Below, in pieces: positions 1 through 23,615 of a stretch of DNA of 64,000 nt. Positions within the stretch are counted from its first letter, which is position 1; each line of letters begins with the position of its first letter. A program made the position numbers and the translations under genes. The notes beneath the pieces were generated by a model. It made no database searches, was not told the origin of the DNA, and saw nothing but the letters and a program-made list of their open reading frames with translations. Origin of the DNA: Liolophura sinensis (Eukaryota; Mollusca; Polyplacophora; Chitonida; Chitonidae); contig NC_088306.1 of the NCBI RefSeq assembly GCF_032854445.1, positions 21,113,764 to 21,177,763 on the forward strand, given 5' to 3'.

Positions 1-1
1 T

Positions 2-223
2 GTCCTCCTGGTGGTCGTGTTTTGTGTATGTTGGCTGCCATATTGCATCACATGGCCTGCAAATGGGCTGTGTCCCACGTGCATTTCAGAAGAAATCAGA
101 TATATTTTTGGATACTTTCCTTATGGACAATCGGCCATTAATCCGTTGATCGTTATTTGCACAAGTACACAAATTCGTACCAAGCTAGCTCGTGCATGCA
201 CTGTGCATTTATGGAAAAAGTAA
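2..223 (+). CDS. Class A GPCR, 3' end only (TM6 to C-terminus)
   Basis: The gene is cut by the window start, so only its last 73 codons are visible. They encode TM6 with a CWLP toggle motif, a third extracellular loop with a Cys-x-x-Cys pair, TM7 with Tyr-Gly-Gln-Ser-Ala-Ile-Asn-Pro, and a short basic tail ending in a stop codon. The sequence is clearly of the same family as the complete genes at 3742, 44453 and 50022. As in those, the Tyr of the TM7 NPxxY motif is replaced (NPLIV). Its duplicate at 54011-54473 is badly damaged, whereas this end has no lesion. Whether the upstream part is intact cannot be seen. Confidence 0.85.
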   Translation, partial: VLLVVVFCVCWLPYCITWPANGLCPTCISEEIRYIFGYFPYGQSAINPLIVICTSTQIRTKLARACTVHLWKK

Positions 224-3200
224 ATACTTTCCGGTAAGGGTTTTAGCTATTCGCTTGAGGTGATTCATCCATTGTACACGTGATAAGCAATTACTTAAGA
301 GAATGAGGAGCTTGAGCCCCAAGGTCCTGTGTTACCGCTTACCAGATGTGTACCCGAGATCAAACACCTCAAGCGATTGCCGATAACCTACTGTGTTAAT
401 GACGCCATATGCTTCATTTTGCGTATTGCCCTTTTTCGAGGATCATTCTTGTTGTATTGAAAGATAATGACATTGGGCAGAAGATACCAAACTTTTTGAA
501 ATGTCCACACAACGACCCAGGCTGAAACACAAAACAAGTTTTGTGTATCCATAGAGGAAGACTTTTGGATGTTTCTGGTAGCATCAGTGTTAGATCAATA
601 ATATTTTTTCATGACATGTTCTTAGCTCAGTGACATTTACTCAGATGGGGTACCCTAGATGGACAAAGACATGTTCTACATGAAAAATTTTACCTATCAG
701 AAATAGAAAGAGCCTTGTAGATTGTCGGTGCTATTTTCTTAGCACATAGTGATTCCTGGTGGATTAATATATACTGTCTATGTTTGCTTTTTATGAACAT
801 TATTTTGAGCTTTTCGTTGTAAGATATGCCAGAATGCAAATCTTTAGATATGTGACATTAGGAAACGCTTAAATACGTTCATTCTACGCACGATTCTCCC
901 CAGGGGATAAGGAAAGGACCTGGTGCGGTCAGGCGGAGAATCGGCCCCAGAGAGGTACGATAAGAAAGTGCTAATTTCAAAATGCCAGTACAACTCAGTA
1001 AATTTCGGAATCAGTAGTATAAGACTTGGTCGAAGCACACATGAAAATTATAATTTTGTAGAAGAGATGGTTGCTTAGGAATAACCCTTTAAAAATGCAC
1101 ACTCGATCAAAAGTGCAAATTTTTCGTTTAAACGAGGCACTGTGTTTTTTATTTACAGTATGAAGATTAACGTTAACTAGAAAAATATCTTTATTGAAAG
1201 TTTCTTCTGTGTTTTTTTTTCTACGTGCTGTCAGAGTTTCGTTGGTTAACATTTGTCTTCATATGTAAAACAAAAGCTTCATAATGTGATGAGTTTCGTC
1301 ATGTTTTAGCAAGTGTAAAATCTGTGTTTTGTGCCACGATCTGTCAGGCATTTTCCACAGTACACTGGACTAATAAAGTTACTGTGGAGAAAAGGTTGCA
1401 TATCCGGTAAAAGCACGAATCTTTGTACATCTTGTTGTTTTTTTTCTTTGAAAAGATGCTTTTGAATGAGAAAGGATGTACGCCGTCTTGCATTGAATAA
1501 GTGTTATCATGGATTAGAATGGAAAAGCAATGATGTTACGTGATATATGGCCACACATCATACGTGAATCCTGGCTGAGAGTACTTGTGATCTTCTAACT
1601 ATTATTAACCTTAACATGTTACGCGTAGAGGAAGTTTAAGGCTGAAAATTAATATTTGTTATATATCTATTTAATTGATTGGTGCTTAACTGCGTGCTCA
1701 AGAATTTTTCAGAAAGTTACATTTGTAGTTCAGCGATTTTCATAACTCTACAATGCCTAATGCAAAAAAAAGGTATTTCTCTGTGACTGGAGCCGGATAT
1801 AAGTTTTCTAGTTTACGACTTATACATCGATTCAGCGCATGTTTGGAGCTTTATAAGCCGCATGCTTGCCATATAACAGAAACGGACCAGTAAAATAGAA
1901 ATGATAAAGGTAGCCTTACGAGTGTGTGTCAGCAGCCGTCACTCACAGATGTAGTCAGTTTCGCTACTTAAGGTTCACAGATCAAACGGGCATGTTTGTT
2001 CTGTATAAATGGAGAAGGTATACTGTTTGTTCTTGTGTGGAAAACGTCAATAATTAAAGCTTTCTCTCTCTACTTGTTGCATTTGCTTTGGCCAGTTTTA
2101 TCAGAAAACATGTTAATCAATTCGTTATTATTTGAACTGATTTATAATTGGTGACTGACTACGTGTTTGCTTTGACATTACGGACACCTCTTGCTGAAAA
2201 TAGAGACACTTAACTGTTGCGTTTCTACTACACCTGTGCAGCAGGAGTTCAGGCAAGCCAGTGGTGAAAGACTTTGTAGAGAATCTGTAGTGAATCCGGT
2301 TACGGACAGCATTACTAGAGGTGAATGTGCAGTGATGTTAACTGAAATACATTTGACGTTACTGGTTTAACTTTACAAGGTACATTAATAGGTTAAAATA
2401 TTTTAAAAGACATCCATGGCTGCGGTACTGCACAGGTGGCGTTAAGCCATTATTATTCACTCGTGTTACTGGGACACTGTGACGACCATTGTGTGCGTTA
2501 CCTTGCTGAACCATTTAACCAAAGACACAAGGATAACCAGAGCTAAAGAAACCACCGGGATTAGAATCAGTGCTTATCTCGGTGCATCCGTCAGTCAGTT
2601 TCCTTCTTCAAGCACGGGGGAGATCAGTGAAATGTCTGACGAATTTAGTTAAATCTCACAAATTTCTTTTCGAAGAACCAAGGTCTCAACAGCCGTTCCA
2701 AGACCGGCATCTCAAGATGCAGGTCAGAACGCACAACCTGATTTACTCGGACGTTATGTAGAACTTACGAATATATGAAAATAGGTGTGATATACCATCG
2801 GGACGGTCACATACATTTCTGGGTAAATTACATAAAGGGATATCTCTAGCTCAGTCTTCCTCTCTACGCAGGGATATAAGTTATGGGTCATATTCAACAA
2901 AAACGCACATCACTGAAGATGCGTTTTAGGAAATCTGACAACTGCTGCTCACAAAAGTAATTCAACGAGTTTGTTGATATAAGGCGTAGGTGAGTTTTGA
3001 GGACCATTTAACACTGAGGACTAGACAGACCAATGCGGAAAACCATCTTGATACGAAACATTAATTACACCTTAACCAGGTCAGCAGCAAATATGAAACT
3101 CAATGCTGATTGGCTGATAAACCTCCAAAAATGTCACATTGGGTTACCCCTTAATCTTGTTTACCTTAAAAATAGTGGAAAACATTACTATTGCAAATAT

Positions 3201-3741
3201 CACATGCACTTAAATATTGGATGTTAACTAAACAGGAGGGTTGACATCTTTATGCCAAATGAACGTGTATTTGTTTCTCCATTGTTAATGTGTCTCCATG
3301 ACATATCCGAGAGGCTAAGCTGGTGCGTACCGACAACTCAAGGGAGTGTAAGCAAGTTAACGTTGACAAACAGCATGTCTAACTAGCTAAATATTTGCTT
3401 ACGACAGGAACTATAAGGTACACATTGACGAGAAAATCAAATTTATAAAAGGGACCGTGATTTGTCGGCTGCCTCTGCTAAAACGTCTTCCTAAAAGGTC
3501 TTGCAGCTCTCTCTTATAGTTTGTGACTTCGTTTGATTCCTATATTGAAACTATCAGGTGCCTGTTTTCTTCGATGTTACCCATGGTAACAGCAGGGCAT
3601 GACAGACGTAAACATAAGCAAAAGTCGGTTATGAACTAAACGACATTGGTTCTTCTCTGAAGATCACATGCGAAAATACCTAGTTATCAATGCAAGAAAT
3701 TTGAAAGGTGTCAACACAAGAACCACAATCAGAGATCTATC
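224..3741. other. Intergenic, no gene recognised
   Basis: I see no supported gene. The short open frames here have no recognisable family and sit in AT-rich DNA. A decayed fragment of the common SINE, minus orientation, lies near 1663-1712. The stretch is conserved with 54474-57932 only because of the segmental duplication. Confidence 0.6.
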
Positions 3742-4824
3742 ATGGAGATTCCAGCGTCAATCATTCCCTTCAACTTCACCAACTGTAGCACAAGCCTTGC
3801 TGAAGTTGGTCAGACAAACATCACCTTGCGTCCGATTTTCGCGAGCGAAGTTGCTCAGGCTGACCTCTCTGTTCCTGTGTGGCATCAGATTTACACTGCC
3901 TGTGTCTCAGTGGTGGCCACACCAGCTAATCTTATCGTCATTATCTGCTTGTGGCGAGATCCCGGTTCGGAGGTTTCTGGCTTCTCTACCTACGCTGTGT
4001 CAGTGGCGTTCACCGATTTACTGGTAGGTGTAGTTCCTATGCCTGTTAGATTTATTGAAGGGATGTTGACAACCTGGCCCTTTGGGCTCGCTGGCTGCAT
4101 TTTGTGGAGACAAATCGATTTTGGACTGACTTCTGTGTCCGTATTTCTCTTTCTGGCCATGGGTTACGATCGGTACCGTTGTGTGACAGCCCCTCTACAG
4201 TATCGTTCTCAGTTTAAGACAACCAAGGCGGCTTGGATATCGGTATTTGTGTGGATAGTAGGTTTTGTTTTATGGACACCGTATTTATTACTGAAAATAT
4301 TTATGCATCAGGTCAACTGCATTTTATTTACTTTTGGACCTAATTTTTTAGAGGTTATCCAATTTACTGTAGCCTATTACATTCCCATTTTGGCACTTAT
4401 TATAATGAACAGTATTTTGATATGGACACTGAACACACGAATTCCCCGATCACAATCGTCAGCAGCCAACAGCCGGCGGACGCCAGCTGACATTTCAACG
4501 GTGACTGACGTCATTGGGCATCACTCCAGGCCATGTGAACCTGTGACGAGTGTGTCCGTAATGGTGTCAAAGAAGAAACATTCTAAAATGACCTCCATTT
4601 ATAAGATCGTCATCCTGGTTGTCGTTTTCTCTGTGTGTTGGCTGCCATATTGCATCACGTGGCTATTGGATGGACTGTGTCCCATGTGCATATCGGGTGG
4701 GGTCAGACAATTTTGTGCACTCCTCACCTATGGACAGTCCGCCATTAATCCGTTGATCGTCATCTGCACAAGTCATCAAATCCGCTCGAAGATAGCCCGC
4801 ACATGTGTAAAGCGAACAACGTAA
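3742..4824 (+). CDS. Class A aminergic-type GPCR, intact, single exon
   Basis: This 360-residue seven-helix receptor probably sits in the plasma membrane and signals through G proteins. The N-terminus has three glycosylation sequons (Asn11, Asn14, Asn26). Generic-position landmarks are all present: Asn63 (1.50), Asp92 (2.50), Cys119 (3.25) with Cys193 in ECL2, Asp126 (3.32), DRY at 143-145, Trp171 (4.50), Pro215 (5.50), CWLP at 299-302, Cys313/Cys316 in ECL3, Tyr330 (7.43) and Asn336-Pro337. Asp3.32 with Tyr7.43 is the amine-binding signature of muscarinic, histamine and trace-amine type receptors. NPxxY reads NPLIV, so Tyr7.53 is lost. The third intracellular loop is short, about 60 residues, and the tail about 20. 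The first ATG starts the conserved N-terminus shared with its paralogues. The ligand is unknown; an expanded chemosensory subfamily is plausible but inferred. Confidence 0.93.
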   Translation: MEIPASIIPFNFTNCSTSLAEVGQTNITLRPIFASEVAQADLSVPVWHQIYTACVSVVATPANLIVIICLWRDPGSEVSGFSTYAVSVAFTDLLVGVVPMPVRFIEGMLTTWPFGLAGCILWRQIDFGLTSVSVFLFLAMGYDRYRCVTAPLQYRSQFKTTKAAWISVFVWIVGFVLWTPYLLLKIFMHQVNCILFTFGPNFLEVIQFTVAYYIPILALIIMNSILIWTLNTRIPRSQSSAANSRRTPADISTVTDVIGHHSRPCEPVTSVSVMVSKKKHSKMTSIYKIVILVVVFSVCWLPYCITWLLDGLCPMCISGGVRQFCALLTYGQSAINPLIVICTSHQIRSKIARTCVKRTT

Positions 4825-5324
4825 ATACCGATCAGAGCTGGATCGGTTCAACACTTTTATTGCCGTATATACATCTCATGATCAAGCATTGATTACCGAC
4901 GGAATGTAACGAGGTTATAATGTTTGTCCGTCTGTTGTCTTTATCTGTAAAGGCGGAGAAAAAGTTAAAATGAAGTAAGCTTCATACAGAAAGAACGTCA
5001 AAAGTTATTTGTAAATATGGTTATCAATAATTTTCCGATTTTTCCTCACGGAGAAAAGAACATTTTAAAATAATTTTGTATCTTGACATTTGGGACCACC
5101 TCTTGGTACATATAGTCTTTCCGTAATAAAGTCCTAAGTAAGGATGCGACTCATGTCCAGCTAATATATTTGGGCTTGCTTTTGGGTTTTCCTTCGGTAG
5201 AATGTTTTTAACCAATATTTTGATCATATTTATTATAACAACATTTTCCTTGTCATAATTCAGATTTCAAGCATGTGTCTATATATAAACAACAAATTTA
5301 CATTCAGACAAATTTATTATACAT

Positions 5325-5350
5325 GCATCACATCACATCACATCACATCA
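5325..5350. repeat. (CATCA)n microsatellite
   Basis: About five tandem copies of a 5-base unit. The equivalent site in the other segmental copy, near 59510, has contracted to about two units. Confidence 0.8.
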
Positions 5351-6877
5351 TGGAACATTTTTTATGGAAAAAAAACACACACATACCAAAAGGTGGTCCC
5401 AAACATCCACCATACAAAAATCATGTCCTTTTCTTCCGTTAAAAAATAATGAAAAAAATATTTCAGATCATATTTACGAAAAAGTTTTCATGCCTTTTCA
5501 TCTGAAATTTGCAATCTAATTGAACACGATGAATATAATGCCCACTGCCCCTGTACGCCAATGAAAAATTCTAAAGACATATGTAAAGGTGATTTTTAGA
5601 CATACTGTTCAGCATTCTTTCCGCTATCGCTTGCTTCTTCTTGGTGTTCAGTTTCACATAAATATGAAACATTTAGATGATACATTCGGATACAAACTGC
5701 ATCTACGCTTTGATCTGACTTGAATGTCAGACCATTTTTACTACATATTTACTCATTACTATATACGATGGTATCAAAATTTTATTCAGATAAAATAGTT
5801 CGACTTAGTGTAAATTGAAGAGAGCAGACACATCACAACGCTACAAGTCAGAGGATGGTATTGTAATAAAAGTTATTTAAATTAGTTCTGATGTAAACCA
5901 GTGTGATGTAAGCAGTGTCTTGATAGTCTTCTTCAGGGAATCGACATATTCTAGACCAATATAGAGTCGAGAGTTCGAATCCAGATTCTGTCTGCTTTCA
6001 CAACAGCTGGATTGACAATAATTACTGAGGTTAAATGCATGAATCCAGTCCTTATTTTATCAGCAGCGGCTCTGAAGTAGTTGACTCGCCATGAAGTACC
6101 TGGGGTAGGGCAATGTTTTTTTCCTTTATATTCATGTACTTAAATATCATCTGGAAGTGTATTAAAAGTAACATTTAATTGCTGAATTAACTTATGCTTG
6201 TTTCGCCAAAATGAATGCCTGTAAAGAAACAATAGTTCTAAGCTGTTGTCCACATACCATAGTTGAATAGCGGGTTGCTAGAGAGCCTAATGGTGTAACG
6301 TTATGCACTTAGTGTTTGGTTACGACCTTATCTACACAAGGTCAAGGTCATTAAACTATACAATGTCATCAGCATATGTTAATAGCTCTTTACTGAAATG
6401 AATTCTACGGCTCTGCTTTGATTGCCTTGTGTCAAGGGAAATGTTACCGCTCCGTTTTCACTCTCAATGCTGTAGTTTTATATCATATGACTGCGAAACC
6501 AGGATTCTGATTGTTGACTGAGCATCCCGAAGGCCTGGCCCCCTTGCATTTGCTGAAGGTGAATGTTTATTGAATGTGACAACACAGCATTTTGAGTAAT
6601 TCTAGACCAGTGATGTCTAATAAATTGCCACAACACTACTGCCTTTTTACCATATCCTTACAATTATTGATTCATGGAAAGGCTTATTAAACATATGTAG
6701 GCCTCTATCTTTACCCATGCAAAAGTACGTTCCCAATAAAGAACTACTAAGATTTCAACTAGGATGTATGAACATGGAGATAGAATAGAAGGAGGCACAA
6801 TTATGAGGCTTCAAAGTGTTCGGTGTAGATTACCGTGGGGGAAGCTCTCTGTCGTGACAGGAGATTAGAGCTCTCAG

Positions 6878-6982
6878 GCTTGGTCAGGGCTTGACGCAAG
6901 CGCTCTCGCGAGGCTGTCGAACAGCCAGGACGTGTGTTTGATAGACTTAAGTCAAGCTCGCGGACATTTGCCGACAGCTCCT
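6878..6982 (+). other. Candidate short exon or structured element
   Basis: A GC-richer block bounded on the left by an acceptor-like 'agctctcag' and on the right by a donor-like CT|GTAAGT. Between them is exactly 35 codons without a stop. It also contains a perfect 6-bp hairpin (6912-6917 with 6921-6926) nested in a longer inverted repeat (6889-6895 with 6951-6957), so it might be a structured RNA or part of an old repeat instead. It is identical, splice edges included, in the duplicate at about 61059-61163. No protein family is recognised. Confidence 0.3.
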
Positions 6983-7491
6983 GTAAGTTTGTGTACTTCA
7001 GTTTGTGGGGATTTTTTCGGCTGAACTGGCCGGCGTCTTGATCTTGGAATCACACGAACAAAGGCAGAATATACACGTAGATATGTAATATTAAAGTTTT
7101 TATTAAAGCCATGTGACTTGTTGATGGTTCTTTAATTAGCGTTTATGCCCACTATGCAATAAGAAACAAAATCTCCAGAAATTATAGGGTCTATATGGTT
7201 ACAAATGTTGATCTACAGTTACTGAATTTAATGGATTTATCAGCTTATTGTAAAAGATTCAGTAAATCTGATACTTTACATGTTTGTGGTCGATGCATTC
7301 CTACAGGTTTCTTTCGTTTGGAACAACGTGCAGTTTACATCAAAGCGTGACAAAACTGCATGAAGCCTTTTCATAACTCAATAGACAAGCATGCGTTGGG
7401 CGGGTCAGTCAATCGTAACCAGGCCTAGTAGTGCCCCATATTCTACCTCCATGATATGAATGTATGTTTTTGCTTTTACTTTATACTTAAC

Positions 7492-7750
7492 AGTTTTTCA
7501 GCCATATGATGACGATGTGTTCATATACTGTCTTATCTTGCTGGAGGGCGAGTCCATGCCCCCAAAGTCCTGCCACCACTAAAGCATTACGCCGAAGACA
7601 CCAGATTTGACACCGAACTCTGTTGCATTATACTGACACCGGGCAAACTAGTCTTGTTTCCTTGGTCTAATAGCTTGTACCATTTTTAAAGTCTTTGGTA
7701 TGACCCACCTCGGATTTGATCCTAATGTTCTAATCATTACGCCACGAAGC
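7492..7750 (-). mobile_element. tRNA-derived SINE, second family, degraded
   Basis: Related by eye to 47270-47580 and to 12520-12735. Shared blocks include 'gccgaagacacca', 'gacaccgggc' and 'gtctttggtatgaccc'. The tRNA-like head is at the right end on the minus strand, with a degraded B box near 7710. The copy at 61672-61932 arose by segmental duplication. Confidence 0.6.
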
Positions 7751-7827
7751 AGTTCTTTGCTGACATGAAGGCGGTTCTGAATGAGACAGGAAGTGTATCA
7801 ATGATTGATTGATTGATTATTGCTTAA

Positions 7828-7931
7828 TTTATTTATTTATTTGATTAATGATTTACCCCGTACTGAAGAATATTTCGCCTATACAACACCGGCCAGCATT
7901 ATGGTGGTAGAAAACCGATAAAACTACGACC
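7828..7931 (-). mobile_element. Common SINE (RUDI/V-SINE-like), truncated and old
   Basis: An (AAAT)n tail read in reverse, then the core 'cgtactgaagaatattt', then 'ggccagcattatggtgg', ending at a degraded arm. This is the 3' half of the element seen complete at 48154-48399. It lies about 600 bases downstream of the dapF-like gene stop. Confidence 0.75.
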
Positions 7932-8524
7932 AGATTATGGCTTAACGCTATTTCGGCAATATTGTTGCCATATGGTGGAGTGGACAGACTACAACTGGAA
8001 TAAACCGCCCCGTGTGACCAGATGTTAGACAAAACATCAGGCTGTATCCGCGACATTGGCAATGGATGCAAACAGGGGATAATGTAGAACCAAACAGCTT
8101 AGTAGTGGTGACGCTAACGTTCATCGGAATACAAGAAGGCTTTTACTATTTCGTTTTTAGAATTGACTTCATTCAATGGCATTTACAAGATGAGTTAGAT
8201 AGCATAGCAAATATATAAATCACAACTTCTGTTTTTTCAGTCAGAATCGTTGTGGTGTAGGTGCTAATACCGTTATGGAATTGTAATTCAATGGTGAAAT
8301 CAATAAATCGACCATTTATCCCTTGTCTGTACGTTTACCTTTGGGAAAAGTCGTCTGTCACACCATAACCATGTATAACCTTTTAATCGATCACTGGGTT
8401 AATGGCATAAACAAACCATTCTATGATATCAAGGCAAGCTGAGCAGATTGTTCTCCCCGGATATAAAATCTACCCGTCAATTATTTATGTGATCCTTTAG
8501 ACAATTTTTCATTTGTTCAGTCCA

Positions 8525-9385
8525 TTAGAGATCATGCAACACTCCTTCGAACACGTGACATGCAGGACCAATTAGATACACGTCTGAGAATTCCCTCTCA
8601 CCCACGCGCAAAGCCGTCACCGTTAGTGTCCCAAGACGAACTTTGACATTAACTTTCACTGACGTCGGTTCAGTGAACACTGACCGTCGACTTACCGTAA
8701 CAAGCGCAGCGCCAGTGGCGCCAGTTCCACACGCCAGCGTCTCGCCGTTGACGCCGCACTCGTAACTTCGCATGGAAATCTCACTCGTTTTTTCGGGGCA
8801 AGTTTGGACGTAAGCTTTGACAAATCCCTCTTTGTGTCCGGTGTCATATATTTTCCGAAGTTCATCGCCATCCTGCTGAACGTCAACGCTTTCTAGGTCG
8901 TCAAAGTATGCAACGAAGGTTAAGGTGCCGGTAAAAATCTGATAATTATTGTTTACCACTCTATCAATCCCCCGGTCTATGTCTTTCATCTTAAGATGCA
9001 CCAGGCCAGACTGACTGTCCACACGGCCAACGTGTTCTCCGTCGTATGCACAGAACGTAACATCCTCGTCTGCCGAAGCCAGGCCAAGCTCAATTGCAAA
9101 CTTCACAGCACAACGCCCACCGTTCCCGCATAACCCACCTACCCGTCCATCGCTACAGTGGTACACAAACTCAAAAACACAGTAACGGTGCTGGGCATTC
9201 TCACAAGAACGGATCTCGACCAACCCGGTCGCACCAATCCCAGTTCTAGGCTCGCACAATCTGACGACAAAAATTTCTTGAGAGACGTCTATCCGCCTGT
9301 CTCTGTTGTCCATAAATATGAAATTGTTTCCCAAAGCGTTGTACTTTGAAAATTCCATTGTCTGTACCCGCCAGCAACTGTTCAT
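8525..9385 (-). CDS. Diaminopimelate-epimerase-like protein (DapF fold), copy 1
   Basis: The 286-residue product matches the DapF family end to end: an N-terminal GNNF block (residues 19-22), GIGA near 49-52, first catalytic Cys86 in LCGNGGRC, second catalytic Cys219 in ACGTGA, and a C-terminal GPA..VFEG. DapF interconverts LL- and meso-diaminopimelate in bacterial and plant lysine/peptidoglycan synthesis; animals normally lack it. Catalytic and backbone-binding glycines remain. By alignment from memory with E. coli, far-end recognition residues are changed: Asn64 to Cys77, Asn157 to Thr154, Asn190 to Val189 and Arg209 to Cys210; Glu208 is kept (Glu209). There are no introns, and GC content is visibly higher than in the flanks. 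Met10 is an equally good start and matches the usual family start. Lateral transfer from a bacterium is inferred. No other lysine gene is nearby. This copy has Thr where copy 2 keeps Asp in GIGxDG (residue 53). Confidence 0.86.
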   Translation of the reverse strand: MNSCWRVQTMEFSKYNALGNNFIFMDNRDRRIDVSQEIFVVRLCEPRTGIGATGLVEIRSCENAQHRYCVFEFVYHCSDGRVGGLCGNGGRCAVKFAIELGLASADEDVTFCAYDGEHVGRVDSQSGLVHLKMKDIDRGIDRVVNNNYQIFTGTLTFVAYFDDLESVDVQQDGDELRKIYDTGHKEGFVKAYVQTCPEKTSEISMRSYECGVNGETLACGTGATGAALVTVSRRSVFTEPTSVKVNVKVRLGTLTVTALRVGEREFSDVYLIGPACHVFEGVLHDL

Positions 9386-11106
9386 TCAGTAAAATCTGTT
9401 TTCAGAAGTCCCGACGTGGAGTGCTAATTACAAATATATATATCTGTATGTGTCATGACCTACATTTCATTCGCAAGGCGTGTAAAGTAATCTTATAAAC
9501 ACGATACTAGAGACTTTATTGTGTACATTACATATCTCCACTACGTTATTGTCAGCACGCTACGCATGACCGCGCATAAAGGGCTATTTCAGTTCGTTAC
9601 GCTACCAGCGCACGGATTAACAAAGTGTTGCTCATCTCTCACGCCGTCCAATCAGAATCGATTCTGTATGCAATGAAGCCATGGTGATTCCTACTACTTC
9701 ATTTATTTTCCTGTAACCGGGTTGGGCTACATTAGACACAGTGGGTGCCCTACTTAAAAGACAAAGTCCATTTCTCCGTTTGAATGGCTATATTCAAGGG
9801 AAAATTATAGCGGAGGGAAAACAGTGGCTTCACGCTGTATTGTCACTGTAATATAAAGACATAAGTGTCAGCTGTGATTTTTGTGCAGAATATTTACAGT
9901 GTATACAAATCTCACAATATGATAAGTCTTACAGTGTATCGGAATATTACAGTGTAACGTAGCACCCACAGGGAGAACATCACAACATTGCTGTAACCTT
10001 GACAACATACAACATCTAAATCTGTCAAATACACTGCTTCTTTTACGACGTCCCCACATATCTTAAACGTGTCCACTCAGCAACAGCAATAACCCCACGT
10101 TCATGACTTCAATTTCCGTAGCAAAAGAGACCAGTATGGCGTATGAGCATGCGCACATGTGAACCGTATTATATGGACACCTCAACAGCTTTGAGACAGA
10201 CTCGTCACATATCATTATCCAACAACAACGCCATGCTGGCACACTAAGGAATTAGCCAAATTTACACAACTTGCCTTCGGTAAGTCGTCTCAGTGAAGAA
10301 GCACTAGATAAAAGAGCAACGTTCTGCAATAAGGAGTAACATTACACGTACATGCACCCTAAGGACTCCTTCGTCGTCATACGACTGAAAAATTGTTAAA
10401 TATAAGCGTCGAGTCCGACATTCATATACCATTCGTAGTCCGTAAAAGGCGTTCCAAGTCGATAATCGCAAGATCCATTTCCAAAACAACGTTTACCACT
10501 AACTCCCTAAGACAAAGGTATGTAAGAAATTATACAAATAGGAAATAAAGCCGGTAACACACAAGAGAGAAGCGGTCATCAGTTTTCAATCATTCCGGGC
10601 AGACAATGAATATTCCAGGCATGAATTCCATATCAAAGTTCAAATTCGTAGTCCTTGAATGAGTTCCATGTCAAATAACAATTAAACAAGTATCTCAGTC
10701 GCGCTTTAATTGCAACTGTTCATAAAGGCATCATTCTGATGTAATGAGCATGGCTACCTTTACGGCCCCTAGCCCCAGGTTGAGCGGTATTAGATACAGT
10801 TTGAAAATGACGAGCGTTACAGACCCTAACCGATCAGATTGTGATTCCAAAGTAACGGACGATTACGTCTTTCCCGTTAATATGTAAAGATCTCATGCTG
10901 CAAGAGGTGCCATATATGATGTTACACATGACATACAAGATAGGCGGTTACACTGGGCAACCAGCGCCATCTATGTTGTTAAATACCATGTTCGTGATAG
11001 ATATGTACATAGGAATAACAGCGCCGCCTATGTGGTTGATCACAATGCAAATCGCTAGAGATTCTGAACGCTCTGTCCATACCTGCCAAAGAGAGTGTTA
11101 TACTCA
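9386..11106. other. Intergenic, no gene recognised
   Basis: Upstream of the dapF-like gene. Short open frames on both strands have no recognisable domain. The duplicated segment is followed here to 9814, where the right copy leaves the window. Confidence 0.55.
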
Positions 11107-12519
11107 TTGTAAAATTTGAGAAACTTATAATGAAGGCGTTTGATGGAGTATCCTTGACAAACTAGTTTTTGAACTACCAACTTGTGACGCAGATTGAAGT
11201 CATCACAATTAACGCAAGATCTGACAAATGCTACAAGGCGAGATATGTATACGCCATATGCCACACGGCCTTTGGTATATTGCTATCTAAATAAGGATAA
11301 TTTACAATATCAAAATTGAAATTATCCCTGGTTATGGAGGTTATTGCTCACAGGCCACCTTAGATTTGCTTCACCATCACCGTCTTATGGTCAGCATCTA
11401 ACAGCAAATCGCTTCTTTAACTCCACGGTGTCTTGACGATTTGGTCTATGGTCAGTGTGCATGCTTTTTTTGCAGGGCAGAGGCGGAACTGACTAGTGGC
11501 GCCCTCACGGGCTGCTAACACTATTGTAAGGGGAGATAACGCATATACCATTTGCACAGTGGAAGGAGACGTCCCTCAGGCTACATTTCATTTTTAAAAT
11601 TTCTTATACCATAGAAATTGTACAATATTGTATAATACCGTGGGAATGAAACCGAGGGTGTTGTTTTATTCCTTCAAATAGAATACTAGTTCACTGCATA
11701 AAGAACAGAAATGTGAAAAATTCAGTCATAATGAACATGAATTACTTTCAGAACTAAAACAGCCATAATGACGCTATATTTTCTACTAGAAAATATAACG
11801 GAAAAAGTACCATATAGCATTAGCAAGGATACTGTCGCGGTTCAATATATATTGTTTTATATTTTTATTAAATGACGACATTGGATTTAAATAGGCGCTT
11901 ACGGCGTTTACTTTGCAAAGTTCGGAGACCTTGGCCCACTTGCACAGAAAGGTTTAAGCCATAATCGATTGTAGACCGTACAACTGAGTCAGAATTTATT
12001 CTATAAATAAGCTCGCCGCTTGCACAAAGAAATTGTAAAGCGGTTGGAATTTTTTGAAGTTACAATCGAGAAGGTAGGCCAAATGCAATTCGTACATAGA
12101 CATTGTACCAGTCAATATCTTTTCTTGTCTTCATTTTCAAAAGAGTTCTACATCATAATGATTCAGCAGCATGTGACAAAACGCTCGTAACATATTTTTA
12201 AGACAATTGTATCGCTCATCATTGCAAACCCAGTCAAAAAGTACTAACTAAGGCAAGTATTTGTTCTTAACTTTAACTGTGAGGCTATTGTAAACATTTA
12301 CAGCGGTTTTGACTCGATTGTAATTTCTGATTGTAATTAACAACAATCGTAGCTTACAATCCTTTCGTGCAAGAGGGTGTCGATTGTAAGCTATGGCTAC
12401 GATCAAGATCTTAGTGATTTGCAATCAACTTAAGCCTATGGCCCTTTTTGCAAACTGCCCCTTGGAATGAAGCTCAGCTCCGGCAGGTCCTGGTCATACC
12501 TGAAAGAATGGTAGGCCGT

Positions 12520-12735
12520 GTTATTGCTACCTCCCCTGTCGCTCGGCAATTGGAGGTTAGAGCAGAGTTGTCTCGTTGTCAGTGTAATTGGGTGTAACTG
12601 GGTGGGGTATCATGTCTGGTGCTTTCGACATGAAGGCACTTTGGGGGCATGGACTCGTACTGCCACAAGAAGACATAATTTATGTACACACATCGTCTTG
12701 TGACTGAAAACTTGTTACGTGTGACGTAAACAGCA
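12520..12735 (+). mobile_element. tRNA-derived SINE, second family
   Basis: The opposite orientation of the element at 47270-47580 and 7492-7750. It shares 'gcactttgggggcatggac', 'tgccacaagaagacat' and the terminal 'tgtgactgaaaa'. The head 'ggaggttagagcag' is tRNA-like. It is repeated at 19055-19270 by the tandem duplication. Confidence 0.6.
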
Positions 12736-13171
12736 TAAATATATGTGGTTACATGTGATCACTTTGCCCTCACTGCTCTGGTTTTACTCGGTGTGCTGTA
12801 TAAGTGTAAAAACAATCAAACGATAGGTGCATTTGTTTATGTATACGTATCATCTTCCTCACTAATTGTCAACTGTGGAAATGATTTTGAGAGAACAGCT
12901 ATTGAAGATTGTACCCGTAAATGTAACCCGTGAAAAGGATCATAGTGTAATTGTCGAAATAACTCACGTAACCCTGGGAGCAAAGGATGTAGCTATGATA
13001 TTAATATAAAATATAATTAAAGACACAGTAGTGCACAAAACTAGAGCGGTGGCAGTGCAATAGTCATGTCAGCGGTGAAATCTCTAAGAGCAGCAATCTA
13101 CACGCCACCTTACACCATGGCTTGAGCAAGATTAGAAAAAAAATGTGCAGTGATCTTAAAGGCATTTTATT

Positions 13172-13362
13172 AGATTTATTTATTTATTTGATTGGTGTTT
13201 TACGCCGCACTCAGGAATATTTCACTTATACGACAGCGGCCAGCATTATGGTGGGAGAGAACCGGGCACAACCCGGGGGAAACTCACGACCATCCGCAGG
13301 TTGCTGGCAGCTCTTCCCACTTACGGCCGGAGAGGAAGCCAGCATGAGCTGGACTTGAACTC
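13172..13362 (-). mobile_element. Common SINE (RUDI/V-SINE-like)
   Basis: On the plus strand it reads tail (TTTA)n, 'tacgccgcactcaggaat', 'ggccagcattatggtggg', and runs into the 'ctggacttgaactcc' of the tRNA-like head, so it is nearly full length but lacks the 5' end of the head. Confidence 0.85.
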
Positions 13363-13691
13363 CTCCCCCCGTCCCTCCCTTTTTATTAAACGTCACTGGT
13401 CTAGAATTACTCCAAATGCTGTGTTGTGATAACATTTAACATAGAAAAAATAACAGACTACGTTTATGATTAGTCTACCAGCAGAATCCTGGATTACACA
13501 GAGAGTGATTTTCTGCATATTGTTATTCATTTAATGATAAGGCTTTAATCTCTGCACTAAGCTCCCCCCCTCCCCCTCCCCCGATATCCGATATTCCCAC
13601 TCTTGGAAATGAGGCTACAGTGTTCTCAGTGGACTCGTCCATTTTGAAAGGTATTTGTGAGGTTTGTTTGGAAGATGTCTTATTATACTGC

Positions 13692-13938
13692 AGGGTCCTC
13701 TGTGGCTGAGGGGCTAGAATGTCAGTGCGGTCCAATGACCCAAGAGCCTCTCAAACCCAGCTCATGCTGGCTTCCTCTCCGGTCCTACGTGGGAAAGTTT
13801 GTCAGCAGCCTGCGAATAGTCGTGGGTTTCCCCGGGCTCTGCCCTGTTTCTTCTCACCATAATGCTGGCAGCCTTAATGTAAGTGAAATATTATTGTGTA
13901 CGGCGTAAAAAACCAATCAAATAAAGAAATAAATAAAT
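13692..13938 (+). mobile_element. Common SINE (RUDI/V-SINE-like), near full length
   Basis: It starts with a tRNA-like A-box region ('tgtggctgaggggcta'), continues through 'ctcatgctggcttcctctcc' and the core 'accataatgctgg', and ends in 'aaccaatcaaataaa' plus an AAAT tail. The insertion lies about 330 bases beyond the GT54 stop codon. Confidence 0.85.
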
Positions 13939-14269
13939 CATACCGGAAAATGTAAGTTTTATGACTAAAAGACCTTTATTTCGGTCGAAAATGCACTTTG
14001 TGGGGGGGGGGGGGGGGGGGGTAGGGATTTTAGGTCATTTATACTGCTTGGCTTTAATACCTTTAGGGTATTGTGCCTGTATTGTGGCAATTTATGATAT
14101 TAACTCTGGTGCTGCCATCTTTCAATTCAGAAATAATTAATCAATCAATCAATTAATCAACTACTTTTCGGTAAAAGAAGAGGGAGTGGTAAAGCAGAAT
14201 TATGTTTATGTACAGGTATGTCTTAGCCCAGTTTTAGGGTCATCAAACTGAGGTTCAAAGTTTGTACAA

Positions 14270-15105
14270 TCAGAGTTTGATGTCACAGAACGACTTTTGG
14301 ATTCGTCTAATTCTGGCCTCCCACTCTGTTCGTTCTGGACCCGATATCCCCCACTTTTGTCGCTTGTGCACTGGCAAAGACGGACGATTCCACAACTGGA
14401 AATTGATATCCACCATTTCTTGTCGTCTGCCTAACAGAGACGACTGTATACCTTCGTGTTGGAATATTGTCGGTCGAGACACATATCGTTTAAACTGTAG
14501 ATTAATTTCATTGAAATGAAGATAGAGGACGTCATTTGGTTGCTCGCTGTAGAAGAAGGTAAGAAATTTGGCTAGCTTCGCAACATCTGGAGAACGGTAA
14601 AACTTTCCAATGAATACGATCTCTGAGAATTCCAGGCACACCCATTCGGGAACCTTTCCCATGAATCTTCTGATAGCTGTGACGTAACCAGGCACTGTAA
14701 TAAGGTCATCCTCCAGTTGAAGGTAGTATTCGGATATGCGCTCGCTGTACGTCATCAAGAAGGCAAAGTCTAAGTTCTGCTTGGAGCGCCACCTGACGCG
14801 GGAAACGCTGTGGTTGTACGTCATTTCTAGATAATCGGGTGGGGTCGGGTACAAAGTTGGATAAAAACTGTCCGGTGCTTCGATAGTTTGAAGTAGACCT
14901 GACTGGAAATGCTTTCGGTATTTATGAAGCAGCTGAACGTTGATCGCTTCTCGCGACGTTATCTCTCGGTCCGCCAACAAGACGACAATGGTGACGCTCT
15001 GACGTTCGTTGACGTCGGTGTTATTTATCAGCGAGTCTAGGGTCAGTTGAATGTATTGGGTACCATTTGGTCTGGACGCAGTCGGAATGCCAATAGTCAT
15101 GAAAC
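14270..15105 (-). CDS. MGAT4-type N-acetylglucosaminyltransferase, terminal exon, intact
   Basis: This exon encodes about 278 residues of a GT54 catalytic domain, closest in look to MGAT4C. The enzyme family adds beta-1,4-GlcNAc to the alpha-1,3-mannose arm of N-glycans in the Golgi. Landmarks in order: TIGIPT at the start, VRWRSKQNLDFAFLM, YYLQLEDD (the acidic nucleotide-sugar/metal motif), WVCLEFSE..FIGK, FYSEQPND and FQHEGIQSSL. A good 3' splice site (pyrimidines then CAG) lies just before it at 15106-15107 on the minus strand; the frame open beyond that is intronic. The protein ends about 50 residues after the SSL motif, so it lacks the C-terminal lectin-like domain of vertebrate MGAT4A/B. 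The exon(s) for the signal anchor and stem were not found. Confidence 0.88.
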
Positions 15106-15429
15106 CTGAAAGAGCAGACGAAGTCTCACTGTATTTATGTGTTATATATTTGATGGATACATTTTTATTATACAATGGTAACAGAGAACGTCCGCACCTT
15201 TCCCTCAAAGCCAGTTTTGACCAAGGTCAAATGTTGAATTGTTATTCAACTCGCCTACCTTTTGATAATGTGATCTAAAATTCGGAATATGAAGTGAGTG
15301 TTATTTTATAAAGTTGAATTTCAAAAAGTCCATGTAGAATTTGCCCCAGGTAGCTAACAAACAGTTTAAAACAATCTCACAATCGGAACAAGACGAAAAT
15401 ATAAAACGGCTCTTAAGTGTCTTGTAAAC

Positions 15430-15575
15430 GACGATTAGCCCTTCATTATTGGGGTCGTGAGTTCGAGCCCAACTCTCGCAGGTCAGTAAATTCATCTGGC
15501 ACCTGGCGAGGTACAGCATTATGCATCTCATGCTGCTCGTTTGGGCGTTAAACATTAGTAAACTCAATGGCAAGT
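15430..15575 (+). mobile_element. Possible tRNA-derived SINE fragment
   Basis: A B-box-like 'gagttcgagccc' followed by 'gcgttaaacattagtaaac', a common mollusc SINE end. A matching copy lies at about 21983-22128 through the tandem duplication. Only weakly supported. Confidence 0.4.
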
Positions 15576-16673
15576 AGTTACACTTCTATTTATCAGCAAA
15601 AATAAATCCCCTCACGTCACAAGACGTCAACGACGACCACGGCAATATAATTATAGACATACAGCATAGAAAGTAAAACCAGAGCAGCGACGACAGAGTG
15701 ACAGTTGCCAAATGGTCACATGTAACCGATAAAATATGGTCTCCTGTCAATCTGCCTTAGTTAGGGTTTTATTCTAACTGTTCATGTAAATGCTTAAACA
15801 GTTCTAAATTACACGCCCCCTAGCACTATGGCTTAAACGGAAATAGGTCAAAAAAGTGCACTGATGTTCATTGCAACTGGACTAAACCATCACATTACAA
15901 CAGTGGGACATTGTGTTTTACTAAGGCTGTCACTTCGTGTGGTCCAATGAAAGCACAAAAGATGTAAATAACAAAGAGAAGAGTATGGTAGAGCAGCGGT
16001 GACAATGTAATAGTTGGCAAATGATCAAACATAACTCAGTCTGGTAAAATCCGGCGTCTTCATGCAAATGCTTCAGTGGTAGCAACGAAGACACTCCATG
16101 GCACCATGACATTCGCAGAATTATGTAAAAATTATAATGCAGCTATGTTGACAACAATGTATTTGACCTCATTGGTCTAGGTAGAATTACTCAAAATGTT
16201 GTGCTGTCGTCACGTTACCTATTAATATTACAACGACAGCATTAATAACAATGCAAAGAGACCAGGCCAGGGGGATACTTATCAGACCAGCAAAATATCA
16301 CAGTGTGAAAGATAGCATCGATTGAAAAACCTGACCTGCAACAGCAGTGTGATAGTTAGCAAATGGGTCACATCCAATCGGCCACATCTGGCCTCTTGTT
16401 AATTTACCTCAATTACGAACTGATAAGATATCGCGAACATCACTGCGCTGAATGAGTTTTAAGGGCTCTGACCACAAGGCAAGGGCTGACCGGTGTCAGC
16501 GAGCTTGCTGTCACTGGACAAGCCGTCATGTGTGACTGGCGTCATCGGCATAGCGTCCCACAGAGGCAGAACTATACCTTTATTAAGTCTTAAGTCTACC
16601 TCCTTCGCCGTCTAATCTGGCAAGAATAATGATAAAAGCGATGCTAAACCTCTAGTGTACATATCTGACATCG

Positions 16674-16768
16674 TCCCGGTTTCCTCCCATCATAATGCTG
16701 GCCGCCGTCTTATAAGTGAAATATTCTTGAGTACGGCGTAAAATAAACTATCAAATAAACAAATAAAT
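16674..16768 (+). mobile_element. Common SINE, 5'-truncated
   Basis: Only the 3' part remains: 'ggtttcctcccatcataatg', the core and an AAAT-like tail. Its partner in the second unit is 23222-23315. Confidence 0.8.
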
Positions 16769-16925
16769 ACCTGATGTCTTCAAAAAGACCTGAACATTAA
16801 ACAGCTACACCAATGTCAAAACCTCTGCTTTTTGACAGCAGAGGTTAAATGATAACGACCAGGACAAGTCTAAAAAGCTTTCTTAAATTTTACTAAAATG
16901 CAGAGTGTTAAAAGCACTATCGTCT

Positions 16926-17013
16926 CCCCCCAACACAATGTTGGCCGCCGTCTTATAAGTGAAATATTTTTGCGTACGGCACAAAATACTAATCAAATAA
17001 ATAAATAAATAAA
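16926..17013 (+). mobile_element. Common SINE, 5'-truncated
   Basis: A second short 3' fragment about 160 bases after the previous one, with the tail 'aatcaaataaataaataaat'. Its partner in the second unit is 23466-23556. Confidence 0.8.
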
Positions 17014-17421
17014 ACCACTCTAGCTAGATTGGGGAGATGATACGGAAACAGCCCATACACCTATCGCTGACGTATATAATGACTACACTTTCAAACATTA
17101 TTACAGTATAGTTGCCTTACTCAATGTTATACCTGTCTTCTTCTCAGGCAGGGAATATTATCACGTTACATCAGGCGAATTTTACGGACACTGCCAAAGA
17201 TTTTTTTACTGTAGACTCTTACTGAAGACTCTTCATTTGCATGAGCTAAATAGTGTTATTTCGCCGTAAATCTCTTTGAAATATGGTGTTAGCTGTGTAC
17301 CATAGACGTTATCATTATCGTTTATCATTTTAGAATTTCTGACTAGTTTCTATTAGAATTGGAATATCTCTAAAACTACATCAGAACCCCTAATCAGCGG
17401 TACTCAGTTACTTGCATTTGT

Positions 17422-17621: not shown

Positions 17622-19054
17622 AATTGAGAAACTTAAAATGAAGGCGTTTGATGGTGTATCCTTGACAAACTAGTTTTTGAACTACCAACTTGTGACGCAG
17701 ATTGAAGTCATCACAATTAACGCAAGATCTGACAAATGCTACAAGGCGAGATATGTATACGCCATATGCCACACAGCCTTTGGTATATTGCTATCTAAAT
17801 AAGGATAATTTACAATATCAAAATTGAAATTATCCCTGGTTATGGAGGTCATTGCTCACAGGCCACCTTAGATTTGCTTCACCATCACCGTCGTATGGTC
17901 AGCATCAAACAGCAAATCGCTTCTTTAACGCCACGATGTCTTGACGAGTTGGTCTATGGTCAGTGTGCGTGCTTTTTTTGCAGGGCAGACTCGGAACTGA
18001 CTAGTGGCGCCCTCACGGGCTGCTAACACTATAGTAAGGGGAGATAACGCAGATACCATTTGCACAGTGGAAGGAGACGTCCCTCCGGCTACATTTCATT
18101 TTTAGAATTTCTTACACCATAGAAATTGTACAATTTGTAATTGTACAATATTGTATAATACCGTGGGAATGAAACCGAGGGTGTTGTTTTATTCCTTCAA
18201 ATAGAATACTAGTTCACTGCATAAAGAACAGAAATGTGAAAAATTCAGTCATAATGAACATGAATTACTTTCAGAACTAAAACAGCCATAATGACGATAT
18301 ATTTTCTACTAGAAAATATAACGGAAAAAGTACCATATAGCATTAGCAAGGATACTGTCCCGGTCCAATATATATTGTTTTATATTTTTATTAAATGACG
18401 ACATTGGATTTAAATAGGCGCTTACGGCGTTTACTTTGCAAAGTTCAGAGACCTGGGCCCACTTGCACAGAAAGGTTTAAGCCATAATCGATTGTAGACC
18501 GTACGACTGAGTCAGAATTTATTCTATAAAAAAGTTCGCCGCTTGCACAAAGAAATTGTAAAGCGGTTGGAATTTTTTGAAGTTACAATCGAGAAGGTAG
18601 ACCAAATGCAATTCGTACATAGACATTGTACCAGTCAATATCTTTTCTTATCTTCATTTTCAAAAGAGTTCTACATCATAATGATTCAGCAGCATGTGAC
18701 AAAACGCTCGTAACATATTTTTAAGACAATTGTATCGCTCATCATTGCAAACTCAGTCAAAAAGTACTAACTAATAGTCTACCGAAGGCAAGTATTTGTT
18801 CTTAACTTTAACTGTGAGACTATTGTACATATTTACAGCGGTTTTGACTCGATTGTAATTTCTGATTGTAAGTTACAACAATCGTAGCTTACAATCCTTT
18901 CGTGCAAGAGGGTGTCGATTGTAAGCTATGGCTACGATCAAGATCTTAGTGATTTGCAATCAACTTAAGCCTATGGCCCTTTTTGCAAACTGCCCCTTGG
19001 AATGAAGCTCAGCTCCGGCAGGTCCTGGTCATACCTTAAAGAATGGTAGGCCGT

Positions 19055-19270
19055 GTTATTGCTGCCTCCACTGTCGCTCAGCAATTGGAGGTTAGAGCAG
19101 AGTTGTCTCGTTGTCAGTGTAATTGGGTGTAACTGGGTGGGGTATCATATCTGGTGCCTTCGACATGAAGGCACTTTGGGGGCATGGACTCGTACTGCCA
19201 CAAGAAGACATAATTTATGTACACACATCGTCTTGTGACTGAAAACTTGTTAAGTGTGACGTAAAGAGCA
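19055..19270 (+). mobile_element. tRNA-derived SINE, second family (unit 2 copy)
   Basis: The tandem-duplication partner of 12520-12735, with the same internal blocks and orientation. Confidence 0.6.
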
Positions 19271-19708
19271 TAAATATATGTGGTTACATGTGATCACTTT
19301 GCCCTCACTGCTCTGGTTTTACTCGGTGTGCTATACAAGTGTAAAAACAATCAAACGATAGGTGCATTTGTTTATGTACACGTATCATCTTCCTCACTAA
19401 TTGTCAACTGTGGAAATGATTTTGAGAGAACAGCTATTGAAGATTGTACCCGTAAATGTAACCCGTGAAAAGGATCACAGTGTAATTGTCGAAATAACTC
19501 ACGTAACCCTGGGAGCAAAGGACGTAGCTATGATATTAATATAAAATATAATTAAAGACACAGTAGTGCACAAAACTAGAGCGGTGGCAGTGAAATAGTC
19601 ACGTCAGCGGTGAAATCTCTAAGAGCAGCAATCTACACACCACCTTACACCATGGCTTGAGCAAGATTAGAAAAAAAAATGTGCAGTGATTTTAAAGGCA
19701 TTTTATTA

Positions 19709-19897
19709 GATTTATTTATTTATTTGATTGGTGTTTTACGCCGCACTCAGGAATATTTCACTTATACGACAGCGGCCAGCATTATGGTGGGAGGAAACCG
19801 GGCACAACCCGGGGGAAACTCACGACCATCCGCAGGTTGCTGGCAACTCTTCCCACTTACGGCCGGAGAGGAAGCCAGCATGAGCTGGACTTGAACT
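19709..19897 (-). mobile_element. Common SINE (unit 2 copy)
   Basis: The duplicate of 13172-13362. Shared position and flanks show it was inserted before the tandem duplication. Confidence 0.85.
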
Positions 19898-20222
19898 CCT
19901 CCCCCCTCCCGTTTTATTAAACGTCACTGGTCTAGAATTACTCCGAATGCTGTGTTGTGATAACATTTAACATAGAAAAAATAACAGACTACGGTTATGG
20001 TTAGTCTACCAGCAGAATCCTGGATTACACAGAGAGTGATTTTCTGCATATTGTTATTCATTTAATGATAAGGCTTTAATCGTTGCACTAAACTCCCCCC
20101 CCCCCCCCCACCCGATATCCGATATTCACACTCTAGGGAATGAGGCTACAGTGTTCTCAGTGGACTCGTCCATTTTGAAAGGTATTTGTGAGGTTTGTTT
20201 GGAAGATGTCTTATTATACTGC

Positions 20223-20469
20223 AGGGTCCTCTGTGGCTGAGGGGCTAGCGTGTCAATGCGGCCCAATGACCCAAGAGCCTCTCAAACCCAGCTCATGCTG
20301 GCTTCCTCTCCGGTCTTACGTGGGAAAGTTTGTCAGCAGCCTGCGAATGGTCGTGGGTTTCCGCCGGGTTCTGCTTTGTGTCCTCCACCATAATGCTGGC
20401 AGCCTTCATGTAAGTGAAATATTCTTGAGTACGGCGTAGAACACCAATCAAATAAATAAATAAATAAAT
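20223..20469 (+). mobile_element. Common SINE (unit 2 copy)
   Basis: The duplicate of 13692-13938, with the same tRNA-like head, core and AAAT tail. Confidence 0.85.
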
Positions 20470-20791
20470 CATACCGGAAAATGTAAGATTTATGACTAAA
20501 AGAGATTTATTTGAGTCGAAAATGCACTTTGTGGAGGGGGGGGGATTTTAGGTTATTTATACTGCTTGGCTTTAATACCTTTAGGGTATTGTGCCTGTAT
20601 TGTGGCAATTTATGATATTAACTCTGGTGCTGCCATCTTTCAATTCAGAAATAATTAATCAATCAATCAATTAATTAATCAACTATTTTTCGGTAAAAGA
20701 AGAGGGAGTGGTAAAATAGAATTACGTTTATGTACGGGTATGTATTAGTCCAGTTTTATGGTCATCAAACTGAGGTTCAAAGTTCGCACAA

Positions 20792-21627
20792 TCAGAGTTT
20801 GATGTCACAGAACGACTTTTGGATTCGTCTAATTCTGGCGTCCCACTCTGTTCGTTCTGGGCCCGATATACCCCACCTTTGTCGCTTGTGCACTGGCAAA
20901 GACGGACGATTCCACAACTGGAAGTTGATATCCACCATTTCTTGTCGTCTGCCTAACAGAGACGACTGTATACCTTCGTGTTGGAATATTGTCGGTCGAG
21001 ACACATATCGTTTGAACTGTAGATTAATTTCATTGAAATGAAGATAGAGGACATCATTTGGTTGCTCGCTGTAGAATAAGGTAAGAAATTTGGCTAGCTT
21101 CGCAACGTCTACAGAACGGTAAAACTTTCCAATGAATCCGATCTCTGAGAATTCCAGGCACACCCATTCGGGAACCTTTCCCATGAATCTTCTGATGGCT
21201 GTGACGTAACCAGGCACTGTAATAACGTCATCCTCCAGTTGAAGGTAGTATTAGGATATACGCTCGCTGTAAGTCATCAAGAAGGCAAAGTCCAAGTTCT
21301 GCTTGGAGCGCTACCTGACGCGGGAAACGCTGTGGTTGTACGTCATTTCTAGATAATCGGGTGGGGTCGGATACAAAGTTGGATAAAAACTGTCCGGTGC
21401 TTCGATAGTTTGAAGTAGACCTGACTGGAAATGCTTTCGGTATTTAAGAAGCAGCTGAGCGTTGATCGCTTCTCGCGACGTTATCTCTCGTTCCGCCAAC
21501 AAGACGACAATGGTGACGCTCTGACGTTCGTTGACGTCGGTGTTATTTATCAGCGAGTCTAGGGTCAGTTGAATGTATTGGGTACCATTTGGTCTGGACG
21601 CAGTCGGAATGCCAATAGTCATGAAAC
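20792..21627 (-). pseudogene. MGAT4-type GT54 terminal exon with two nonsense codons
   Basis: Colinear with 14270-15105 and with the same 3' splice site (AG at 21628-21629), but the frame is interrupted twice. The Trp codon in the VRWRSKQN motif has become TAG (21311-21313), and the Glu codon before YYLQLEDD has become TAA (21251-21253). The stops are 60 bases apart in the same frame, with no frameshift. The rest, including LEDD, EQPND and FQHEG, still reads normally, so inactivation is recent. Any product would stop before the catalytic EDD motif. The alternatives are sequencing error or a polymorphic null allele. Confidence 0.88.
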
Positions 21628-23221: not shown

Positions 23222-23315
23222 TCCCGGTTTCCTCCCATCATAATGCTGGCCGCCGTCTTATAAGTGAAATATCCTTGAGTAAGCCGTAAAAAAACTATCA
23301 AATAAACAAATAAAT
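23222..23315 (+). mobile_element. Common SINE, truncated (unit 2 copy)
   Basis: The partner of 16674-16768. Confidence 0.8.
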
Positions 23316-23465
23316 ACCTGATGTCTTCAAAAAGACCTGAACATTAAACAGCTACACCAATGTCAAAACCTTTTTGACAGCAGAGGTTAAATGATAACGA
23401 CCAGGACAAGTCTAAAAAGCTTTCTTAAATTTTACTAAAATGCAGAGTATTAAAAGCACTATCGT

Positions 23466-23556
23466 CTCCCCCCAACAAAATGTTGGCCGCCGTCTTATAA
23501 TTGAAATATTTTTGCGTACGGCACAAAATACCAATCAAATAAATAAATAAATAAAA
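23466..23556 (+). mobile_element. Common SINE, truncated (unit 2 copy)
   Basis: The partner of 16926-17013. Confidence 0.8.
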
Positions 23557-23615
23557 CCACTCCAGCTAGATTGGGGAGATGATACGGAAACAGCCCATAC
23601 ACCTATCGCTGACGT

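Follow-up and report, generated by a model that had tools for sequence, protein, structure and literature searches.

The nuclear genome of the chiton Liolophura sinensis carries a family of genes with the fold of diaminopimelate (DAP) epimerase, DapF, of which one copy retains the complete canonical active site, while an amplified branch has lost the contacts that clamp DAP. The starting point was a stretch of 64,000 nucleotides on contig C12 (31,077,156 bases), hereafter the window; the genome searched comprises 609,464,459 bases in 632 contigs. Eight consecutive mollusc-haemocyanin domains on contig C8 speak for a mollusc and against amphioxus, which had also been considered; a GFP-family search, run with no positive control, gave no match. 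A sequence-only reading of the window had described a single gene acquired laterally from a bacterium. That the gene is genomic and of bacterial type stands, and it proves to be part of a family of 11 loci instead of one gene. The finding is also richer than that reading in its contents, since it includes the canonical copy (L010), a lysA-like gene and the amplified branch to which the window gene belongs.

We consider it moderately probable that a Bacteroidota-type dapF, gained laterally once, gave rise both to a DapF and LysA salvage pair and to an amplified racemase branch with a switched substrate. The single gain would have founded the chiton nuclear family. L010, together with a lysA-like enzyme encoded on C6, would convert dietary or microbial LL- or meso-diaminopimelate to lysine. 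The second branch, made up of the C12 copies (including both window copies) and the copy at C13:23.16 Mb, would have retained, at the reacting alpha-carbon, the two-thiol apparatus that needs no cofactor and lost the distal DAP clamp. It would thus have become an amino-acid racemase or epimerase acting on another, probably monocarboxylic substrate and serving as a source of a D-amino acid, and would then have been amplified into six close copies, one every 54-61 kb.

The complete intronless frame noticed earlier in the window is real. It runs from ATG to TAA over 286 codons with a stop codon immediately 5' of the ATG; in 60 mononucleotide-shuffled versions of the window the longest ATG frame was 168 aa. 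Both catalytic-Cys motifs of diaminopimelate epimerase, which had likewise been read in this frame (W1), are found in it and in a second copy (W2) within the same window (Table 1). The two frames are about 98% identical, their 12 base differences being 4 synonymous and 8 nonsynonymous. W1 scores 65.1 bits against the Pfam domain PF01678 (DAP_epimerase, cut-off 34.7) and 112.5 bits against the NCBIfam model TIGR00652, slightly below the cut-off of 114.65, which W2 exceeds with 120.0 bits. The predicted structure of W2 (pLDDT 90.4, pTM 0.89) has the DapF fold: the top 21 rows of its comparison with the PDB are all DapF or O-ureidoserine racemase, with TM scores of 0.66-0.77 relative to query length, and the Foldseek probability for DapF chains is 1.00. 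The window gene has the domain and fold of DapF, but its function as a DapF is doubtful, the DAP-specific contacts being lost. The GC content, which had been put forward as a sign of transfer, is indeed higher in W1 (49.2%) than in its 2-kb flanks (39.9% and 40.4%). This is a weak argument, since GC is 42-46% in six further ORFs of the window and part of the excess is thus that of ordinary coding DNA here; we dropped the contrast as evidence for transfer.

Table 1. Features in the window and related loci elsewhere in the genome. Positions are those of the window unless a contig is named.
Feature	Position	Strand	Remarks
W1, DapF-fold copy 1	8525-9385	(-)	286 aa; Thr replaces Asp43 of GADG motif
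W2, DapF-fold copy 2	62711-63571	(-)	286 aa; GADG motif unbroken
Segmental duplication, left member	1-9814		95.85% to 54271-64000
Segmental duplication, right member	54271-64000		Clipped by window end
Rhodopsin-family GPCR gene in duplicated stretch	3742-4824	(+)	Pfam 7tm_1 127.9 bits; 360 aa
Duplicate GPCR	57933-58793	(+)	7tm_1 95.1 bits; shorter open frame, 286 aa vs 360
SINE-like dispersed repeat core, ~90 bases	7827-7917		~0.6 kb from W1
Repeat core of identical family beside W2	62012-62102		61965-62215 vs 7780-8030, 98.8%
L010, DapF paralog with complete canonical DAP-epimerase active site	C13:720252-721064	(-)	
Inverted broken DapF relic	C12:20922703-20922979	(+)	
Inverted broken DapF relic	C12:20983776-20984418	(+)	
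Inverted broken DapF relic	C12:21044699-21045341	(+)	
Inverted broken DapF relic	C12:21104215-21104840	(+)	
Inverted broken DapF relic	C12:21222920-21223562	(+)	
lysA-like gene, intron-bearing (L109)	C6:34558746-34564588	(-)	Five TIGR01048-matching stretches

Across the genome, 28 DapF matches resolve into the 11 loci, the remainder being fragments of those or relics. Eight loci lie on C12 (20.911-21.239 Mb) and three on C13; nine of the 11 are open across the entire domain, with no intron inside those nine coding frames. Six close copies on C12, spaced 54-61 kb apart, share 95.6-98.5% identity with L001 across their locus pieces. Five of these recent copies are full length, and the sixth (L008) has lost the Cys73 segment by an in-frame deletion that leaves one open frame of 253 codons. 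One of the C13 copies (C13:23159418) has an in-frame TGA. The five relics of Table 1 have similar gaps and are situated between array copies, none being listed between W1 and W2.

The genomic setting of the window gene agrees with what had been claimed for it: it lies beside animal GPCR genes, it was copied with its neighbours in a segmental duplication, and it does not come from a contaminant contig. Bacterial contamination or a misassembly, including haplotypes set side by side, would account for the bacterial kinship of the genes, and the surroundings of W1 and W2, 98.5% alike over 3.9 kb, come near a published heterozygosity of 1.22-1.26% (PMC11068029). Such an artefact is nonetheless extremely improbable, as the two duplicated stretches of the window are just 95.85% alike over 9.8 kb, the 11 loci sit on two long scaffolds of about 30 Mb, and their GC3 is 0.46-0.57. 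Chiton repeats occur near every locus fetched; the repeat core of about 90 bases recurs throughout the window and near the DapF paralogs on C12 and C13.

L010 is the least derived of the chiton copies and served as the reference in the search for relatives. The best 80 of at least 579 confirmed stretches in a scan of genome_contigs are all Bacteroidota by title and 40-46% identical to L010, the scan having used L010-derived peptide patterns that favour the L010 type. Among plasmid records, where 50 of 85 matches are listed, the top row comes from the Bacteroidota (35.7% over 97%); a Streptomyces plasmid reaches 41.1% over just 33% of the query, and a Bacteroides plasmid merely 29.6%. Phage records gave 22 matches, the best (42.9%) being an unverified 'Bacteriophage sp.' record, and the 240 stretches matched when viral contigs were scanned with the family alignment include no relative.

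Trees were built from chiton and bacterial rows. Trees and residue counts include seven of the 11 chiton loci, leaving out L003 and L005 (near-identical to others), L008 (shortened) and C13:23159418 (stop). Eighty-two rows were treated as Bacteroidota: the 80 genome loci, the plasmid L098 of Bernardetia and, placed with them by us, the unverified 'Bacteriophage sp.' record (L107); nine other bacterial rows were drawn from nine of the 85 matched plasmid records. The structure alignment contained 41 sequences, of which nine are from the chiton and 32 were taken from the 80 genome loci. In the 98-row tree the seven chiton rows form one group (SH-aLRT 94), and chiton and Bacteroidota together are separated from the nine other bacterial rows (SH-aLRT 99). 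In a 55-row tree with 45 of the 82 rows treated as Bacteroidota, where L010 is the sole chiton and the sole eukaryote row, the grouping with Bacteroidota has support of 98/95; the L010 branch is long and takes no firmly supported position among the Bacteroidota. The phylogeny against bacterial rows that had been suggested as a check thus puts the chiton copies with Bacteroidota, and the lateral origin proposed earlier is the best reading within this sampling. Between C12 and C13 copies, synonymous change is at or close to saturation (dS above 2.5 or undefined), so the gene has long been resident in the chiton lineage. With sampling from bacteria and the chiton, one old lateral gain of a Bacteroidota-type dapF is well supported; kinship with Bacteroidota is what the sampled sequences display, and the transfer and its direction are what we infer from it.

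It is also conceivable, and in our view unlikely, that no bacterium-to-chiton transfer took place, the gene being an ancient DapF of eukaryotes or animals that survives in few lineages, or having arrived through another eukaryote such as an alga or a choanoflagellate. The long L010 branch would be compatible with this, as would the fact that, within the PDB, the chiton lysA-like gene comes closest to chloroplastic enzymes. A dapF of the choanoflagellate Salpingoeca rosetta, a unicellular close relative of animals that we compared by description only, is reported to derive from a prokaryote by transfer, and it occurs with other DAP genes (PMC7971027). However, the nearest sampled relatives of L010 are Bacteroidota (98/95), and the chloroplastic DapF 3ejx (78.9 bits) is no nearer to it than bacterial chains of the PDB, the top rows being 5ha4 (86.6 bits), 7vdy (83.6 bits) and 9mro (81.8 bits).

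The active sites of the chiton copies were compared in an alignment numbered after H. influenzae DapF (seven chiton rows, 82 counted as Bacteroidota and nine other bacterial rows). Asn11, Cys73-Gly-Asn, Glu208 and Cys217-Gly-Thr are retained in all seven chiton rows. L010 retains N11, N64, C73, H159, N190, E208, R209 and C217, and shares Ser157 with 81 of the 82 rows in the Bacteroidota set. Three residues present in all 91 bacterial rows are replaced in all six other chiton rows: Arg209 by Cys or Ser, Asn64 by Cys, Arg or Leu, and His159, which we take to assist Cys73, by Thr, Ala, Asn or Cys. Asn190 (90/91 bacterial rows) is lost in five of the six, L007 alone retaining it. At the distal site W1 and W2 have Cys for Asn64, Val or Phe for Asn190, Cys for Arg209 and Thr for Asn157, so that they lack the DAP distal-binding set. 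Asp43, found in 82/82 rows counted as Bacteroidota and 8/9 other bacterial rows, is present in W2 and replaced by Thr in W1, which may therefore be impaired. As described for the crystal structure of Anabaena DapF, the distal amino acid is bound by the residues corresponding to Arg209, Asn64, Asn157 and Asn190, and the counterparts of Asn11 and Cys73 point to the amino acid that reacts (PMC12039745).

Because Asn64, Asn190, Arg209 and His159 are missing, W1 and W2 are probably not DAP epimerases. That all copies are diverged true DAP epimerases, used for making lysine or for handling fragments of bacterial cell walls, would agree with the fold, the two Cys, the W2 score above the TIGR00652 cut-off and the presence of a lysA-like gene, but we regard it as very unlikely given that Arg209 and Asn64, each present in 91/91 bacterial rows, are missing in 6/6 rows of the branch. 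Our reading is that the window branch has kept the two-thiol racemase core and rebuilt the side-chain pocket, as suggested by the retained core, the lost distal contacts, the DapF-fold model and the parallels with O-ureidoserine racemase and HisR. O-ureidoserine racemase (7vdy) has Thr and Tyr at the equivalents of Asn64 and Arg209, its pocket being likewise altered compared with DapF. HisR, from a bacterium that has no DAP pathway, had been annotated as DapF and turned out, according to its description, to be a histidine racemase (PMC11602996). O-ureidoserine racemase and the histidine racemases HisR and CntK all combine the DapF fold with an altered side-chain pocket, as proposed here for the window branch; unlike the chiton proteins they are bacterial, and their identity to the window protein is low (22-24% and 15-17%).

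Selection has acted on the window branch in the past. The 11 pairs that L006 and L007 form with each other and with the five full-length recent copies have dN/dS of 0.29-0.36 at dS of 0.42-0.63 (the pairs share branches and hence are not independent), from which it follows that these proteins were under past constraint and that the branch underwent purifying selection. This evidence concerns the past: among the five recent full copies dN/dS ranges from 0.21 to 1.16, on few synonymous changes (3-9). For L010 constraint is not measurable, its synonymous sites being saturated.

Loss of His159 means that catalysis could be gone in the window branch, and the C12 branch of this resident lateral family might be catalytically dead or decaying, multiplying as a passenger of the duplicated GPCR-containing stretch. 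The D43T replacement in W1, the missing Cys73 segment of L008, the inverted relics in the array and the dN/dS reaching 1.16 among recent copies all point in that direction. We nevertheless judge a dead branch rather unlikely, as dN/dS is about 0.3 between older branches, N11, C73, E208 and C217 are retained in 6/6 branch rows, and five of the six recent copies are full length, the sixth also keeping an open frame of 253 codons.

Beside the DapF family, the genome contains an intron-bearing lysA-like gene, so that the statement of the sequence-only reading that animals have no diaminopimelate pathway does not wholly hold. Single stretches of this gene reach at best 96.9 bits, none alone exceeding the TIGR01048 cut-off, whereas the five exon translations joined score 298.3 bits against a cut-off of 297.9. 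The borders are splice-like, two stretches being followed by gtaagt and others preceded by cag, and an extra open stretch with the motif DIGGGLGINY occupies the mid-gene gap. In the PDB the best chain for the joined translation is the chloroplastic DAP decarboxylase 6n2a (311 bits), presumably the Arabidopsis enzyme, and the top non-chloroplastic chain is 2p3e (212 bits). Another TIGR01048 match, on C7, was set aside for its GPTCDGLD motif, which we take to be ornithine-decarboxylase-like.

The chiton therefore seems to possess DapF and LysA, with which the DAP route ends. Animals are generally regarded as unable to make lysine. The search for upstream enzymes covered four profiles, whose non-matches are no proof of absence: DapB_C (PF05173; control positive in 11/14 genomes), DapL (TIGR03542; control positive in 14/14, above the cut-off in 2), aspartate-semialdehyde dehydrogenase Asd (PF02774; control positive in 14/14) and Mur ligase (PF08245; control positive in 12/14) gave no match in the chiton genome. 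DapF and LysA without the upstream enzymes searched would fit the salvage of ready-made DAP better than its synthesis, provided that both genes are, as we infer, expressed and active.

Several known systems resemble parts of this arrangement. Bacteroidota-type DapF (TIGR00652, PF01678) is like the chiton copies in fold, length, both Cys and proximal-site residues, and its whole active site is matched by L010; compared with bacterial DapF, W1 and W2 are without Asn64, His159, Asn190 and Arg209, are mollusc-encoded and belong to a multicopy set. The whitefly and the mealybug P. citri are described as holding captured dapF and lysA, the whitefly dapF clustering within Enterobacteriales and the two genes complementing the pathway of the bacteriocyte symbiont (PMC4607527). 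As in the chiton, these are animal-resident genes for the two last steps of lysine synthesis; the chiton dapF differs from that of the whitefly in being of Bacteroidota type, multicopy and diverged. In corals, DAP decarboxylase is listed as an acquisition of Anthozoa from chlorophyll c-containing algae (PMC4878875); this candidate is like the chiton lysA-like gene, in another phylum, and dapF is not named along with it there. For molluscs, no report of the DapF family was found in the open-access literature searched.

A mollusc with a lysA-like gene and a dapF copy with an intact active site makes the salvage of lysine from cell-wall material directly testable. The expanded branch offers natural stages, from intact through altered pocket to relics, in the change of substrate of a captured enzyme, and it could supply a D-amino acid in a mollusc. 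We put forward tentatively, as a possibility with the odds against it, that one captured dapF led to two inventions: with a spliced lysA, the salvage of diaminopimelate from grazed bacteria and algae to give lysine, an essential amino acid, and, in the amplified second branch, an animal racemase of the two-thiol DapF kind with a new substrate, producing a D-amino acid without cofactor.

The remainder of the window has features of its own. Scans with ARAGORN and Rfam gave no match in it. A tandem duplication of 6.4 kb (11116-17421 and 17624-24008, 94.5% identity) contains an MGAT4-like glycosyltransferase frame (14270-15208), and two further MGAT4-like frames adjoin it (24649-25353 and 26215-26709, the latter below the Pfam cut-off). 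Two satellites follow, one with a unit of 39 bases (27881-31717; 98 copies, a 156-base higher order and a strong strand skew) and one with a unit of 50 bases in three blocks (32119-34985). Intronless rhodopsin-family GPCR genes are also found at 44453-45529 and 50022-51083, their DNA being 73-76% alike mutually and to the duplicated GPCR.
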